A stretch of DNA of 64,000 bases. It comes from Thermoleophilia bacterium (GTDB lineage: Bacteria > Actinomycetota > Thermoleophilia > RBG-16-64-13). Shown piece by piece: positions 25,702-33,901 of this stretch (its first letter is position 1; each line of letters starts with the position of its first letter). Made by a program: the position numbers and the translations under genes. Below the pieces are notes generated by a model. That model saw nothing but the letters and a program-made list of their open reading frames with translations. It did not search any database and had not been told where the DNA came from. Location: assembly GCA_027493445.1 (NCBI GenBank), contig JAOSKU010000001.1, forward strand, positions 620,001 through 684,000, read 5' to 3'.

Positions 25702-26337
25702 ATGAAGATCTTGTGCGTCCCCGTGGGCCCCTTGCAGGCCAACTGCTACCTGGTCTCCGACGACCGGGGAGTCACCTGCGCCATCGATCCAGGGGGTGAG
25801 CCTGAACGCCTGGCGGGCATTCTGAACGAGCGGGGTCTCCAGCTCACGCACGTCCTCCTCACGCACGGACACATCGATCACCTGGGTGGAGCAGCCGAGC
25901 TCGCGCGGCTCACGGGCGCCCTCGTGGGGTGCGCCGACGCCACGGCGGTTCTGCTCCGCGACCCACTCAGCTTCATGCCGTTTCCCGGGTTCGGGGAGGT
26001 TCCGGGGAGAGACCCTGACCTGATTCTGGAGGAGGGGGACGTGGTAGAGGTGGGCGACCTGTCCATCGACGTGATCGAGACACCGGGGCACTCGCCCGGC
26101 TGTCTCACCTATGAGGTCGGGGGAACGCTGTTCGTTGGGGACCTGCTCTTTTATCGGTCCATCGGCCGCACCGACTTCCCGGGAGGCGATTTCGACACGC
26201 TCGTGGCCTCCGTACAGAAGCTGGTCAACCGCTATCCGCCCTCCACTCAGGTGCTGCCTGGGCATATGGAGCCGACGACGCTGGGCGACGAGGCTCGGGA
26301 AAACCCCTTCTTGAGGGGACTGAGCCCTCGTGGCTGA
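25702..26337 (+). CDS. MBL-fold metal-dependent hydrolase (glyoxalase II-like, YcbL type)
   Basis: A 211-residue metallo-beta-lactamase-fold protein. The metal motif is LLTHGHIDHLGG; further ligands are ETPGHSPGC, FVGDLLFYRSIGRTDFPGG and LPGHMEPTT. The opening MKILCVPVGPLQANCYLV is characteristic of the YcbL/glyoxalase II-like subgroup found near relA, dtd and hisS in many Gram-positive bacteria. The actual substrate is not known. It overlaps the hisS start by 8 nt. Confidence 0.9.
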   Translation: MKILCVPVGPLQANCYLVSDDRGVTCAIDPGGEPERLAGILNERGLQLTHVLLTHGHIDHLGGAAELARLTGALVGCADATAVLLRDPLSFMPFPGFGEVPGRDPDLILEEGDVVEVGDLSIDVIETPGHSPGCLTYEVGGTLFVGDLLFYRSIGRTDFPGGDFDTLVASVQKLVNRYPPSTQVLPGHMEPTTLGDEARENPFLRGLSPRG

Positions 26338-27608
26338 GAAGATCTCCGCCCCTAAGGGCACGTACGACATCCTACCCCGGGATCAGCCCGTCCGGCTCTG
26401 GGTCGAGGGACGGGCGGCCGATGTCTTCAGGCGTTACGGCTACGGCCGGCTCGACACGCCCATGTTCGAGGAGACTCGCCTGTTCGCCCGGGGGGTGGGG
26501 GAGTCCACCGACATCGTCCGCAAGGAGATGTACACCTTCCAGGACATGGGCGGCCGCAGCATGACCCTCCGACCGGAGGGCACGGCGCCGGCCGCTCGTG
26601 CCTACGTCGAGCACGGCATGCACACCTGGCCTCAGCCGGTGAAGCTTTGGTACCACTGGCCGATGTTCCGCTACGAGAGCCCGCAGTCGGGTCGGTACCG
26701 CCAGCACTGGCAGTTCGGCATCGAGGCCTTCGGCTCCGACTCGCCTGTGCTCGACGCCGAGGTCATCGGCGTGCTGGCCACCCTCTACGACGACATCGGC
26801 CTGGCTCAAGTCGAGCTGCGCCTGAACTCCATGGGCTGCCGGGAATGCCGGCCCGACTACGTCGCCCGGTTGCGCGCCTTCCTCGAGGACCGCAAGGGCG
26901 AGCTGTGCAAGGACTGTCGCGAACGCGCGACGCTCAATCCCCTGCGTACCTTCGACTGCAAGGTGGAAGGGTGCCGGGCGGTCATGGAGCAGGCGCCTCG
27001 CCTGATCGACTGGCTGTGCCCCGCCTGCGCCGAACACCACGCTGTCGTGCAGCGTCACCTCGAGCTCCAGGGCATCGCCTACCTGCCAGACCATCGGTTG
27101 GTGCGCGGCATGGACTACTATACCCGCACGACCTTCGAGTTTCAGTCGGCTGTGCTCGGAGCTCAGTCGGGTGTGGGTGGCGGGGGACGCTACGACGACC
27201 TGGTCGAGACCATCGGGGGACCGCCCACCCCGGGCGTGGGCTTCCGGAACGGGAGTAGAACGCATCCTTCTGGCATTGGAGCGTTCCCGCGAAGACCTGC
27301 CCACGGCCGGGGGACCGACCGCCTACCTAGTCGCCCTCACCGGCGAGGCCCGGGAACCGGTCTTCCTGCTGGCCCACGAGCTCCGCCGGCAGGGGGCCGC
27401 GGCGGAGCTTGACCTTCTCGGCCGGAGCGTCAAAGGGCAGATGAAGCAGGCAGGCCGCAGCGGAGCCCGCTATGCCGTCATCGTTGGCGACGACGAGTTG
27501 GCAACCGGCACCCTCACTCTGAAGGAGCTCGCGACCGGGCGGGAGAAACGCCTGCCCCGTATCGATGCTATGGCGCGGATCGTTGAAGCGGAAAAGGACG
27601 GCGGATGA
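26330..27608 (+). CDS. hisS: Histidyl-tRNA synthetase, with apparent +1 frameshift
   Basis: A class II synthetase of about 425 residues. Motif 1 lies in DTPMFEETRLFARGVGEST, motif 2 in WYHWPMFRYESPQSGRYRQHWQFG, the histidine motif A in RGMDYYTRTTFEF, and motif 3 is GVGFGTGVERILLALE. The frame breaks inside motif 3 at 27243-27247 (TTCCGG where TTCGG is expected). Past it, the anticodon-binding domain (AYLVALTGEAREPVFLLAHE...) is intact to the TGA at 27606-27608. Since the enzyme is essential and a break in motif 3 would inactivate it, an assembly error is more likely than a pseudogene. Confidence 0.92.
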
Positions 27609-29358
27609 GCTACAGGACACACTGGTGTGGTGACGTTGGAGATATACTGGTTGGCGAGAGGGTCCAGGTCGCGGGTTGGGTGCACCGCCGTCGCGACCAT
27701 GGCGGCCTGGTCTTCGTGGACCTGCGCGACCGCACCGGCCTCCTGCAGCTCGTTTTCGATCCGGAAGCCGAGCCGAAGGCACACGAGCAGGCCCATGCGC
27801 TGCGCAACGAGTTCGTGGTCTCCGCCTCCGGCATCGTGCGTTCCCGCGGCGAGGAGCAGGTGAACCCTAACATCGCCACAGGCACCGTCGAGATCGCGAT
27901 CGACGAGCTCGAAATCCTGGCGCGCGCCAAGACCCCTCCTTTCTATCCCGAGGAGCGCGTCGAGGTTGACGAGACCTTGCGCCTGAGGTACCGCTACATC
28001 GACTTACGCCGCCGGCGGATGCAGGGCAATCTGCTGCTGCGCGACCGGGTGGTGCAAGGCGTGCGTCGCTACCTGGAAGCGCGAGGCTTCGTCGAGATCG
28101 AGACCCCCATCCTGACCAAGAGCACGCCCGAGGGCGCCCGCGATTTCCTGGTACCCAGCCGGCTCCGAGCGGGGGAATTCTACGCTTTGCCGCAGTCCCC
28201 TCAGCTCTTCAAGCAACTGCTGATGGTCGCCGGCTTCGAGCGGTACTACCAGATCGCCCGGGCCTTCCGCGACGAGGACCTGCGGGCGGATCGCCAGCCG
28301 GAGCACACCCAGATCGACGTGGAGGCCAGCTTCCTCGACGAGGTCGAGATCCAGGACATCATCGAGGGCATGGTGGTCGAGGTCTTCGCTCAGACCCTCG
28401 GGATCGAGCTGGAGCGCCCGTTCCCGCGGATGAGCTACGCCGAGGCCATGCACCGGTTCGGCTCCGACAAGCCCGACGCGCGATTCGGCATGGAGATCGT
28501 CGACGTGTCCGATCTGGTGGGGGAGTCGACTTCAAGGTCTTCGCCGAGGCCCTCGCCCATGGAGGGGCCGTCCGCGGAATCCGGGTGGAGGGCGGAGGCG
28601 GCTTCTCCCGCAAGGACGTCGACGATCTGACGACTCAAGCGGCCGTCTTCGGAGCCAAAGGCGTAGCTCCCATCTGGGTCGAGGAGAACGGCGTCCGCTC
28701 ACCTATCGCCAAGTTCCTGGGTGATGAGATCCTCAGCGATGTCCAGGCCCGGATGGAAGGACGGCCGGGTGATCTCCTGCTCTTCGTGGCTGACCGTCTT
28801 CCAGTCGTCGAAGCCAGCCTGGGCGCCCTGCGCCTGGCGCTCGCGGAGAAGGTCGAGCTTCCCCGCAGCGGCTGGCGCTTCCTCTGGATCGTCGATCCGC
28901 CCATGTTCGAATACGACGACAAGGAGGGCCGGCTGAAGGCCCAACATCATCCGTTCACTAAACCCCGCGTCGAGCGCCCCGAGCAGCTGCGGGAGAGGCC
29001 CCTATCTTTGGGAACCCATGCCTATGACTTGGTTCTCAACGGAGTGGAACTCGGCAGCGGGTCCATCCGTATCTCCGACCCGCTCCTCCAGGAGGCTGTG
29101 TTCCGGGTTCTCGGGTTGGGCGAGGAGGAGATTCGGGCGAAGTTCGGTTTCCTGGTGGAAGCCATGGACTACGGCATCCCGCCTCACGGCGGCATGGCAC
29201 TGGGACTCGACCGTCTGGTGATGCTCATGGCGGGCGAGTCGTCGATCAGAGACGTGATCGCCTTCCCCAAGACTCAGAGCGGGTCGTGTCCAATGACCGA
29301 CGCACCCTCGCCGGTCTCTGCCGATCAGCTCAGGGAGCTGAGACTCGAGATCCGATGA
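27605..29358 (+). CDS. aspS: Aspartyl-tRNA synthetase, with apparent -1 frameshift
   Basis: A class II synthetase of about 584 residues. The N-terminal OB fold (VQVAGWVHRRRDHGGLVFVDLRDRTG) binds the anticodon. The core has motif 1 (FVEIETPILTKSTPEGARDF), motif 2 (FRDEDLRADRQPEHTQIDVE) and motif 3 (GMALGLDRLVMLM). In the GAD insertion domain the frame breaks in a G5 run (28519-28523); adding one G gives LVGGVDFKVFAEALAHGGAV and joins both parts. It starts at ATG 27605, overlapping the hisS stop. Presence of a GAD domain is normal for bacterial AspRS. Discriminating or non-discriminating character cannot be told here. Confidence 0.93.
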
Positions 29359-29382: not shown

Positions 29383-29411
29383 TTGTCGAAGGTAGGTTGG
29401 TGTGGTACTGT
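29383..29411 (+). promoter_or_regulatory. Promoter of the probable 6S RNA
   Basis: TTGTCG (29383-29388) and TACTGT (29406-29411) lie exactly 17 nt apart, 25 nt after the aspS stop. Predicted transcription start is near 29416-29418, which is also the 5' end of the closing stem of the RNA. Confidence 0.5.
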
Positions 29412-29415
29412 TGAA

Positions 29416-29576
29416 GCGCTCGACCTTGTGCGTGATTTGCCTCAATCTTGAGCCAACACATTTCTCTTGGGAGGTCGGCTCGATCGGGCGGCTGCACAGC
29501 TCTCCGATGGCCGCCACCCACCTGCTTACGCAGGTTCAAGAGCCTGGCGGACACGGCAAGGTGGAGCATTTCCTTT
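29416..29576 (+). ncRNA. ssrS: Probable 6S RNA (RNA polymerase regulator)
   Basis: No protein frame fits this 232-nt gap. The RNA would fold as a long rod: closing stem GCTCGACCTTG (from 29418) with GCAAGGTGGAGC (ending 29567), inner stem TCTTGAGCC (29446-29454) with GGTTCAAGA (29533-29541), a large central bubble, and an apical part. A small hairpin CCTGC-TTAC-GCAGG (29521-29534) lies on the 3' side of the bubble, as in many 6S RNAs. Position directly after aspS is the same as for B. subtilis 6S-1 RNA (bsrA). 6S RNA mimics an open promoter and binds sigma-70 holoenzyme. No covariance search was run. Confidence 0.6.
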
Positions 29577-29591
29577 GCGCGGAGGGATATC

Positions 29592-30278
29592 ATGGCGCGA
29601 ATCCCTAAGAGCTCGTTTCTGAATGACGTTTCGCCGTCAGGCCGCGATAGGTCCGGGCGAGGCAGGGACGCAGCGAGCGCTCATAGCGGCGCTGCGGCCG
29701 CGATAGAGAACGCTGCATCGCGACGACCAGTGCGGCTGCGGCGGCCAAGGCTTCGTTTTGAAACGCGCTCAAAATGGGTTCCTGCAGTCTTCGTGGGTCT
29801 ACTGGCCCTGGCGGCGCTCGCCCTGGCGGTCGGATGCGGCGGCGGCGAGGAGACGACGACCACCGTCTCGACCGTGCCTCCAATCACGCCCCCCGCGAGC
29901 GAGCAAGGTTCAGTCGATCCATTCGCTGCGATCGTCGGCACCCCGCTGCAGCCCACCAGCGATACTCCGGCCGAGGTGAAATCGGCTGTGGAGCAGCACC
30001 GGCCCGTGGTGATGGCGTTCTATGTGACCGGCGGCACTGACGACGCCAAGGTGATCGACGCGCTGAAGACCCTGCAGGGCACCTATACCGATGTGACGTT
30101 CGTATACTACGACTACAAGGCCCCCGCCACCTACGGCGACCTGTCGATACTGGTGCCGGTCGACTACCCGCCTCAGGTCATCTTCGTCGACACCAATGGT
30201 ACGATCCGCCAGATCACAACCGGGTACGTCGACGAGGGAACCTTCAACCAGCTGGTGGTGAACATCCGCCAGGGATGA
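29592..30278 (+). CDS. Lipoprotein with thioredoxin-like fold; signal region carries a repeat insertion
   Basis: ATG 29592 is preceded by GGAGGG (29581-29586). The reading is MARIP(K), then 54 codons contributed by a 162-bp repeat copy (29609-29770), then KWVPAVFVGLLALAALALAV-GCGGG, a lipoprotein signal peptide with lipobox AVGC. Without the insert the N-terminus would be a normal lipoprotein signal (MARIPKKWVP...). The mature part has a Thr/Pro/Ser linker and a thioredoxin-like domain (HRPVVMAFYVTGGTDDAKVIDAL; VDYPPQVIFVDTNGTIRQIT) without a CxxC. A GTG at 29793 after the insert could still allow a shorter product but has no good ribosome binding site. Confidence 0.75.
   Translation: MARIPKSSFLNDVSPSGRDRSGRGRDAASAHSGAAAAIENAASRRPVRLRRPRLRFETRSKWVPAVFVGLLALAALALAVGCGGGEETTTTVSTVPPITPPASEQGSVDPFAAIVGTPLQPTSDTPAEVKSAVEQHRPVVMAFYVTGGTDDAKVIDALKTLQGTYTDVTFVYYDYKAPATYGDLSILVPVDYPPQVIFVDTNGTIRQITTGYVDEGTFNQLVVNIRQG
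29609..29770 (-). repeat. Dispersed palindromic repeat, full-length copy 3 (in-frame in a CDS)
   Basis: This copy starts GAGCTCGTTTC and ends GAAACGCGCTC, a near-perfect terminal inverted repeat, and is 162 bp long (54 codons). Its left end matches the reverse complement of the right end of the copy at 55895-56057 (GAATGACG...TCGCCGTCAGG). Orientation is opposite to that copy. No clear target duplication flanks it beyond a few A residues. Confidence 0.8.
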
Positions 30279-30347: not shown

Positions 30348-31851
30348 ATGAGCACTGAAGACACGCGATCCGGAGTTCCGGTCCCACCCCTTTCTCCCTT
30401 ACGGTGATGCTGTGCGCCGGCACCTCGCCGCCCCGACAGGCGTAGGCCGGCTCGCCGACCCGAGTGGGGTAGGCAGCGCCGGCAGCGCCTCCTGCGGCGA
30501 TCTGGTGCGCATCGAGATCGATGTGGACCGCGGCATCCTGAGGGAGGCGCGGTTTCAGGCTTACGGCTGTCCGGCCACCATCGCCGGGGCTTCCGAGCTC
30601 ATCGGCCGGATCGAAGGCCGGCCTGTGCTGGAGGCGGCCGCTCTCTCCGAGGCATCGATCGCCCGCAGCCTGGGCCTCTCGGCGCGCAAGCGGGCCTGTT
30701 CGAACCTGGCGGTCGACGCCCTGCATGGGGCTTTGGAAGCCGCCACCGGCCGGTATCCCGCCTTGGTCCCGGAGCAGGAGCGAGGGATCGACGAACGCGG
30801 CGTGCTGGTTGGCATGAGCGGCGGAGTGGATAGTGCGACGGCTGCCCTGCGCTTGCGCGAAGCTGGCTACCGAGTGGTGGGAGTCACCTTTCGATTGTGG
30901 AGCGACCCTACCTGCGCGAGCGGGCGAGGGTGCTGCTCTCCAGAGACAATCCAATCCGCCAGACGCACGGCCCACGCCCTGGGCCTCCCGCACTTGACCG
31001 TGGACCTGGGTGCCCGCTTCGTCGAGGAAGTCGTGGACCCCTTCGTACGAGAGTATGCCGCCGGGCGCACCCCGAACCCCTGCGTACGCTGCAATGCGGG
31101 CCTGCGGTTCGCCGAGCTGGCGGGCGTGGCCGATAGATTAGGTCTGCGCTGGATCTCCACCGGTCATTACGCGCGCATGGCCGGCGTGCCCCCGCGGCTC
31201 CGACGGGGCCTCGACCAAGCAAAGGATCAGTCCTACGTGCTGGCCCAGGTGCATCCGCGACTTCTGGAGCGGGCCCGCTTCCCTCTGGGAGAGCTCACCA
31301 AGGCTCAGACCAGAGCGCTCGCTCGGGAAGCCGGTCTCGATGTCCACGATTCCGCCGAGAGCCAGGAGATCTGCTTCATCCCCGACAACGACTACCGGCG
31401 TTTCCTGCGCGAGCGGCTGGGGGAGAGGCCTGGGGCGATCGTGGACTTGGAAGGTGCGGAGATCGGACGCCACAAGGGGACCTATAACTACACAGTGGGG
31501 CAGCGTCGCGGCCTGGGTATCGCCGCCCCGGAGCCCCTGTACGTGCGCGCGACCGTTCCTTCCGAACGCGTGGTGGTGGTGGGGTCGGCCGAGGCGCTGC
31601 AAGTAGCCACCGTGGTGGCCAACGAGGTCGTGGTGCACCGTCACCCTATCCCCTACGAAGGCAGCCTCCAGCTACGCTCCTCCGGGCTGGTGGCGACAGC
31701 GCAGGTTCACTTCGACGAGTCGGAGGGCGCGGCCACCTTCGCGCTGGCCGCGCCGATGAGCGGCGTGGCTGCCGGGCAGGCTGCCGTGCTCTACGACCGC
31801 GACGCGGTCGTTCTGGCCGGTACCATCTGTGCCACAGGGAAGACTAGGTAG
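30348..31851 (+). CDS. mnmA: Fusion of IscU/NifU-type Fe-S scaffold domain with tRNA 2-thiouridylase MnmA
   Basis: Numbered from the GTG at 30412: residues 1-112 form an IscU-like domain with its three cysteines (SCGD at C28, YGCPATIAGASELIG at C53, RACSNLAVDAL at C96), and residues 130-480 form MnmA, which thiolates U34 of tRNA. The MnmA part has the PP-loop GMSGGVDS (134-141), NPCVRCN with C224 and C227, and C321 in SQEICFIPDNDYRRF. The CxxC plus distal cysteine resembles MnmA enzymes that need a [4Fe-4S] cluster. The best start is ATG 30348 (GAGGA upstream): with one T removed at 30399-30400 it reads MSTEDTRSGVPVPPLSPYG into the IscU domain. Otherwise GTG 30412 starts a slightly short domain. 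Confidence 0.88.
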
Positions 31852-32687: not shown

Positions 32688-33080
32688 ATGGATACCGTGA
32701 GCTTGCGGGTCCCCCGCGAGGCTGGGTTTCTGTCGTTGCTGCACCTGGTGTTGGGCGGAATCGGCCTGCGTCACAACCTGTCTTTCGACGCCCTCGACGA
32801 TCTTCAGCTGGCCGTGGACAGCATCCTGGCGGAAGACTCGGAGACTCTTGACGACCTCTCCATGGGCGTAGGCATTGGAGCGGATAGTCTCCTCATCACC
32901 CTCGAGCCCCTGCGCGACCGTGACTTGAGGTCCACTCTCGAGCATGGCCAGGTGCCGGCAGGCGCCGAGTCGCGTTGCATCGACGTGTGCATCCTACTCC
33001 GATCTCTGGTCGACGGCTATTCGGTGAGCGAGCTAGAGGACGGCGCTTACAGGGTCGAGCTGCGCAAGCGGGCGGGGTGA
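32688..33080 (+). CDS. rsbW: RsbW-type anti-sigma factor / serine kinase (HATPase)
   Basis: A 130-residue protein. Its features, MDTVSLRVPREAGFLSLLHL at the start, FDALDDLQLAVDSILAED (N-box region) in the middle and a C-terminal segment YRVELRKRAG, match small RsbW/SpoIIAB-like ATPases. The usual N-box asparagine appears replaced (QLAVDSI, where E-x-x-x-N is expected), so kinase activity is doubtful. It lies directly before a SigB/SigF-type gene, as in sigB operons. No RsbV anti-anti-sigma gene adjoins. GGAG at 32675-32678 precedes ATG 32688. Confidence 0.7.
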   Translation: MDTVSLRVPREAGFLSLLHLVLGGIGLRHNLSFDALDDLQLAVDSILAEDSETLDDLSMGVGIGADSLLITLEPLRDRDLRSTLEHGQVPAGAESRCIDVCILLRSLVDGYSVSELEDGAYRVELRKRAG

Positions 33081-33085
33081 CAAGC

Positions 33086-33901
33086 ATGATCCACGAAGGA
33101 TCGGAGAACCGCCAGGCTTCCGACGACTACGGTGTGCGCCTCTCAGATATCTCGGAGCGCGATCTCTTGCACCGCATCCACGACGAGGGTGACCAAGCCG
33201 CCCGCGAAGAGCTGATCACCCGCTACCTCCCCTTGGTGCGGAGCCTGGCCCGCCGATTCTCGTCACGCGGCCAGTCCATCGACGACCTGGTCCAAGTGGG
33301 CTCGATCGGCCTGATCAAGGCGATCGATCGTTTCGACACCTCCCGGGGAGTGGAGCTCTCGACCTACGCCACGCCGACGATCCTGGGGGAGATCAAACGC
33401 TACTTCCGTGACAAGGGTTGGGCGGTCAAGGTGCCTCGCGCCCTGCAGGATCTCAACATCCGCCTGAACAAGGTCATCGAACAGCTCACGGTCGAGCTGA
33501 ACCGCTCGCCCACGATCTCCGAAATGGCGGTCGCCTGCGACGTTAGCGAGGAGGAGGTGCTGGAAGCCCTGGAAAGCGGCCGGGCCTACAACTCGCTCTC
33601 CATCTACTCGAGCGGGGCCTCGGAGGACGAGGACTCCCTGGAGCTTCTCGACTATTTGGGCAAGGATGAGGAGGAGTACGAGCTCGTCGAACAGCGGCGC
33701 TACCTGGCGCCGGCCATGAACCGGCTCGATGAGCGCGAGCGTTTGATCCTACACCTCCGGTTCTTCGAGGGCATGACCCAGACGCAGATCGCCGCGCGGG
33801 TGGGCATCTCGCAAATGCATGTCTCCCGGCTGATCCGTAAGTCCATCGAGGTCCTTCGCCAGCACATGGTCGAGGAGGAGAAGCTCTCCGCCGGCAGTTG
33901 A
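33086..33901 (+). CDS. sigB: SigB/SigF-family RNA polymerase sigma factor
   Basis: A 271-residue group 3 sigma factor. Region 2 includes LVRSLARRFSSRGQSIDDLVQVGSIGLIKAIDRFD and STYATPTILGEIKRYFRDKGW, region 3 follows, and region 4 contains ERERLILHLRFFEGMTQTQI and GISQMHVSRLIRKS. The GEIKRYFRDKGW motif is characteristic of SigB/SigF rather than WhiG/FliA. ATG 33086 has GGGG 7 nt upstream; an in-frame GTG at 33077 overlaps the rsbW stop and is possible. Neighbouring rsbW, DUF948 and YtxH-like genes make this a stress-response locus. Confidence 0.9.
   Translation: MIHEGSENRQASDDYGVRLSDISERDLLHRIHDEGDQAAREELITRYLPLVRSLARRFSSRGQSIDDLVQVGSIGLIKAIDRFDTSRGVELSTYATPTILGEIKRYFRDKGWAVKVPRALQDLNIRLNKVIEQLTVELNRSPTISEMAVACDVSEEEVLEALESGRAYNSLSIYSSGASEDEDSLELLDYLGKDEEEYELVEQRRYLAPAMNRLDERERLILHLRFFEGMTQTQIAARVGISQMHVSRLIRKSIEVLRQHMVEEEKLSAGS

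Follow-up and report, generated by a model that had tools for sequence, protein, structure and literature searches.

Does a member of the Actinomycetota carry a canonical 6S RNA, the small RNA that blocks RNA polymerase by mimicking an open promoter? Actinobacteria have been named as the one group without 6S RNA (PMC9130861; PMC11077062), and a first-pass annotation of the stretch of DNA analyzed here (64,000 nucleotides, hereafter the window) had proposed a candidate 6S RNA downstream of aspS in an actinobacterium. Sequence comparison shows the locus to be a true 6S RNA gene. It adds a new member to a known family, and does so in the phylum that the literature singles out as the exception. 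The window almost certainly encodes one canonical RNA of this kind, ~155 nt long, with its own sigma-70-type promoter, flanked by aspS upstream and a thioredoxin-like lipoprotein gene downstream. This call is based on family membership, fold, covariation, the conserved promoter and template letters, and the gene neighborhood.

Identity, fold, and promoter

The first-pass annotation had called for a search with the Rfam 6S model. That model, RF00013, matched positions 29415–29571 of the forward strand with 72.3 bits (E 2.5e-12), well above its curated cut-off of 46.4 bits, and the match was complete, covering model positions 1–187 of 187. The matched RNA is 157 nt long against the 187 positions of the model, with deletions mostly in the terminal arm, and it is the only RF00013 match genome-wide in the window's genome. 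A class-specific covariance model, R1, which we built from 40 members of the window's class, scored the window RNA at 141.4 bits, the window being among the building sequences. The originally proposed extent, 29383–29576, does hold both a promoter and the rod, but the RNA itself is better bounded by the Rfam match. The predicted folding energy of the rod is −77.6 kcal/mol, compared with −55.3 ± 4.3 kcal/mol for shuffled sequences (z −5.2), and 0 of 200 shuffles folded as well. A chance origin of the rod at 29383–29576 and of its RF00013 match is excluded.

Covariation among relatives had been set as a test that could refute the candidate, and it is present. In an alignment of 40 relatives from the class, the consensus structure has 35 pairs, 15 of which changed on both sides, and 97.8% of cells hold standard pairs; none of 500 shuffles reached any of five covariation measures, and in slid controls only 38–45% of cells were paired. 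The closing stem, inner stem, bubble, and 3′-strand hairpin drawn earlier are all backed by the Rfam alignment as well as by the relatives, and the arrangement typical of 6S RNA, a closing stem, central bubble, and terminal arm, has been retained by covariation (Table 1).

Table 1. Coordinates of the 6S RNA locus and its parts (window positions)
Feature	Position	Strand	Basis or remarks
aspS, frameshift-split in the assembly	27605–29358	+	ORFs 27605–28630 and 28585–29358; relatives align to both in one frame
−35 box, TTGTCG	29383–29388	+	Sequence; TTG columns 1.3–1.8 bits (17 family members)
−10 box, TACTGT, extended, TGTG before	29406–29411	+	T, A, T columns 2.1–2.7 bits (17 family members)
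6S RNA gene	29415–29571	+	RF00013, 72.3 bits; predicted 5′ end ~G29418
Closing stem, 5′ strand	29418–29438	+	Pairs with 29549–29567; 17 pairs, 7 changed on both sides, 97.8% paired
Inner part of closing arm, CUUGAGCC	29447–29454	+	Pairs with 29533–29540; 8 pairs, 3 changed on both sides, 99.1% paired
Central bubble, 5′ strand	29455–29468	+	AACA unpaired at 29455–29458
Terminal arm	29469–29519	+	7 consensus pairs, 4 changed on both sides, 95.3% paired
Small hairpin, 3′ strand of central bubble	29523–29532	+	3 pairs, 100% paired
Closing stem, 3′ strand	29549–29567	+	Pairs with 29418–29438
Thioredoxin-fold lipoprotein gene	29592–30278	+	ATG ~20 nt past 6S; Shine-Dalgarno GGAGG between

The promoter, proposed as TTGTCG/TACTGT with a 17-nt spacer, lies exactly where claimed, and the predicted start also coincides with the first base of the rod: pairing in the closing stem begins at G29418, 7 nt past the −10 box, with C29567 as its partner. 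A generic promoter scan of the window did not flag this promoter, so its support is drawn from conservation. When the upstream regions of 17 members of the window's family were aligned at the RNA start, with no gaps, the most informative columns included TTG (−32 to −30) and T, A, and T (−9, −8, and −4), and the conserved TTG and T-A----T stood exactly 17 nt apart in these 17 genomes. Conservation thus points to a sigma-70-type promoter at the 5′ end of the rod, while the match to consensus in the window itself is weak, with agreement at 7 of 12 positions and a weak −10 box.

We also note that aspS is not the only interrupted gene here. The adjacent hisS (26330–27608) is likewise split by a frameshift, into 26330–27412 and 27171–27608, and relatives read through it; two neighboring essential genes broken in this way suggest assembly indel errors rather than pseudogenes.

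Template, downstream gene, and 3′ end

Within the closing arm, the letters GAGCC are invariant in the 40 relatives, and in the unpaired AACA that follows (29455–29458) each letter is identical in 39 of 40, indicating a conserved bubble template. A pRNA start region would be expected to show such near-invariance, and we take the position to correspond to the pRNA start in E. coli, by register with E. coli 6S. By this analogy, pRNA synthesis is predicted to begin opposite C29457, giving a product that would begin GUUGGCUCAAG and for which CUUGAGCC (29447–29454) would be the template of the body. Like its E. coli and B. subtilis counterparts, the RNA folds into a mimic of an open promoter; once nutrients are exhausted, it would bind the holoenzyme carrying the housekeeping sigma factor. 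The polymerase would then copy a short pRNA, reading 5′-GUUGGCUCAAGA, starting in the central bubble and running on into the closing stem, upon which the 6S RNA would be released. We infer all four aspects for the window RNA: expression, polymerase binding, pRNA synthesis, and a growth-phase role.

The gene that follows encodes a lipoprotein-like product of 228 aa, and 38 of 50 class loci have a homolog in this position. A profile of eight homologs matched solved thioredoxins (best E 4.7e-7); the window protein lacks a CxxC motif and matched no Pfam family above cut-off. A generic terminator scan found no terminator between the 6S RNA and this gene. Because of this, the mature 3′ end probably arises by processing of a longer transcript, and given the short distance to the start codon, co-transcription of the two with processing at the 3′ end of the RNA is likely. 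In B. subtilis, RIP-seq showed 6S-1 extending into the neighboring mRNA (PMC11077062).

The same close spacing, with a Shine-Dalgarno sequence but no detected terminator before the start codon, and the recurrence of the lipoprotein gene across the class could also be read as signs of a cis-acting leader that controls the lipoprotein gene, rather than of a trans-acting 6S RNA. We regard this as very improbable, as the RNA aligns over its whole length with the trans-acting 6S family, and the same RNA with the same fold occurs in other settings: in one family of the class (f4) the next gene is mnmA or another one, and elsewhere in the phylum alaS is often found downstream.

Further downstream, we observed that MnmA (tRNA 2-thiouridine synthase; 30412–31851) is fused behind an IscU/NifU-like scaffold domain (residues ~3–109; NCBIfam E 5.6e-22), and the neighboring mnmA at two other loci (L036 and L040) apparently encodes the same N-terminal domain. 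A gene for a SigB/SigF/SigG-family sigma factor (32978–33901) lies between mnmA and alaS and is kept in several relatives.

Distribution in the phylum and age of the site

RF00013 matched in 50 of 61 genomes, comprising the window's own and its relatives, and R1 found 6S RNA in five that Rfam had missed (G028, G030, G033, G035, and G058). In one family of the class, f7, neither model found a 6S RNA genome-wide in any of the five sampled members (G026, G031, G036, G046, and G056), and a search around aspS for a degenerate copy with filters off found none. This family therefore appears to have lost 6S without having RbpA, although close families carry the RNA. Across 296 sampled genomes of the phylum, 97 had an Rfam match and 79 an R1 match, 108 when combined.

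The position of the gene is shared as well. Within the class, 48 of 50 loci have aspS upstream in the same orientation, at most 250 nt away (measured from the end of the AspRS match) in 37 and at most 2.7 kb in 11 more; for the remaining two, aspS was not found within the stretch of sequence examined. In other classes of the phylum, aspS lies within 250 nt upstream at 40 of 58 loci and within 1.2 kb at 7 more. No aspS lies close to the weakest 6S matches, which come from families that group with Coriobacteriia, and in a Coriobacteriia MAG the RNA sits 3.4 kb downstream of aspS on the same strand. Family f12 (L137, L141, L150, and others) shows the order aspS–6S–alaS, with the RNA between two tRNA synthetase genes.

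The same arrangement occurs outside the phylum. Among the 20 named AspRS matches listed and scanned with Rfam, at least five Firmicutes (Thermosyntropha, Syntrophothermus, a Syntrophomonadaceae MAG, a Clostridia MAG, and Bhargavaea) carry 6S RNA 77–121 nt past the AspRS match; the remaining named loci among these matches had no Rfam 6S within 3 kb. In B. subtilis, bsrA (6S-1) sits between aspS and yrvM (PMC11077062). Since 6S RNA follows aspS both in Firmicutes and across many families of the phylum, and in view of the AspRS tree, the aspS site is probably older than the split between Actinomycetota and Firmicutes, as the first-pass annotation had suggested from synteny.

The shared position could instead reflect horizontal transfer of an aspS-6S block from Firmicutes, which would leave the identity of the RNA unaffected. 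The arrangement does occur in both Bacilli and Syntrophomonas-like Firmicutes, and the AspRS of some other classes of the phylum falls nearer to Firmicutes in the midpoint-rooted tree. However, in that tree the window's class falls together with Coriobacteriia and RbpA-bearing Actinomycetota (support 0.987), the clade that holds Firmicutes is separate from it (support 0.999), and the arrangement is spread over many families in the phylum. We consider transfer unlikely and allow it some weight because the tree was built from one short protein fragment.

The AspRS tree also bears on the phylum itself. In it, the window's class stands apart from a clade of Firmicutes and Proteobacteria, and named Coriobacteriia (L088 and L120) group with genomes of the same phylum. 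The window's class is distinct both from the class holding these Coriobacteriia and from the RbpA-bearing class, since the genomes of both are listed under its phylum but not under its class. RbpA stabilizes the sigma-A holoenzyme. We searched for it as PF13397 and found it in 29 of the 296 phylum genomes, with high scores in 25. Of the 14 control genomes, Corynebacterium glutamicum alone had it, and it was absent from the 61 genomes of the window's class. RbpA is known from Actinobacteria (PMC4191392), and its distribution, along with the AspRS tree, places the window in Actinomycetota, which supports the original assignment indirectly.

None of the 25 high-score RbpA genomes has a 6S RNA (Fisher p 1.1e-5 with genomes treated as independent), though these genomes form approximately one clade and the exclusion thus amounts to about one evolutionary event. 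In family f21, where RbpA matches are weak and partial, two of three RbpA-positive genomes (G073 and G100) do have 6S. The pattern fits, but does not prove, the proposal that mycobacteria differ in how RNA polymerase and sigma-A are held together (PMC4191392). In our sample, the published statement that Actinobacteria have no 6S RNA is true of the RbpA-bearing class. It does not extend to the phylum in the sense of genome taxonomy, and the presence of canonical, conserved 6S RNA in several deep-branching classes of Actinomycetota changes it.

A fuller history can be offered as a tentative scenario that we hold to be possible rather than probable. Here, 6S RNA at the aspS site would be ancestral to Actinomycetota, would have been lost once toward the class Actinomycetes, where RbpA and Ms1 took over, and separately in family f7, and in the window's class would have become the co-transcribed leader of the thioredoxin-fold lipoprotein mRNA. 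With 6S RNA present in several classes, the reason why mycobacteria and streptomycetes rely on Ms1 and RbpA becomes testable as loss and replacement inside one phylum, and the site directly after aspS is a conserved place to seek divergent 6S genes that the Rfam model misses.

Comparison with known polymerase-binding RNAs

The window RNA matches the family model of E. coli 6S (ssrS), RF00013, over its full length. In E. coli 6S, too, GAGCC precedes the bubble template in the same register; ssrS adjoins ygfA and not aspS. The predicted window pRNA starts with G, whereas the E. coli pRNA starts with A.

Ms1 is a polymerase-binding RNA of Actinomycetota such as mycobacteria and Streptomyces. It replaces 6S in many Actinobacteria and is also rod-shaped, with a central bubble (PMC9130861, PMC4191392), resemblances that could make the window RNA an Ms1-type molecule that binds core polymerase without sigma. 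Ms1 is, however, ~300 nt long with extra hairpins at both ends and has another gene neighborhood (PMC9130861, PMC4191392), compared with ~155 nt for the window RNA, which matches the full 6S model and keeps the block of GAGCC and bubble template. We judge an Ms1-type identity to be extremely improbable. When assessed against the length, terminal hairpins, and gene neighborhood of Ms1, the window locus did not fit, as the RNA is 157 nt long and lies between aspS and the lipoprotein gene and mnmA. Ms1 differs from 6S RNA in binding core polymerase without sigma and in its locus.

Another close counterpart to the window 6S RNA is B. subtilis 6S-1 (bsrA), which shares its family, its overall fold, and its site directly after aspS (PMC11077062). 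The window RNA is ~30 nt shorter, with most of the difference in the terminal arm. Its downstream neighbors are the thioredoxin-like lipoprotein gene and mnmA, in place of the yrvM that follows 6S-1.
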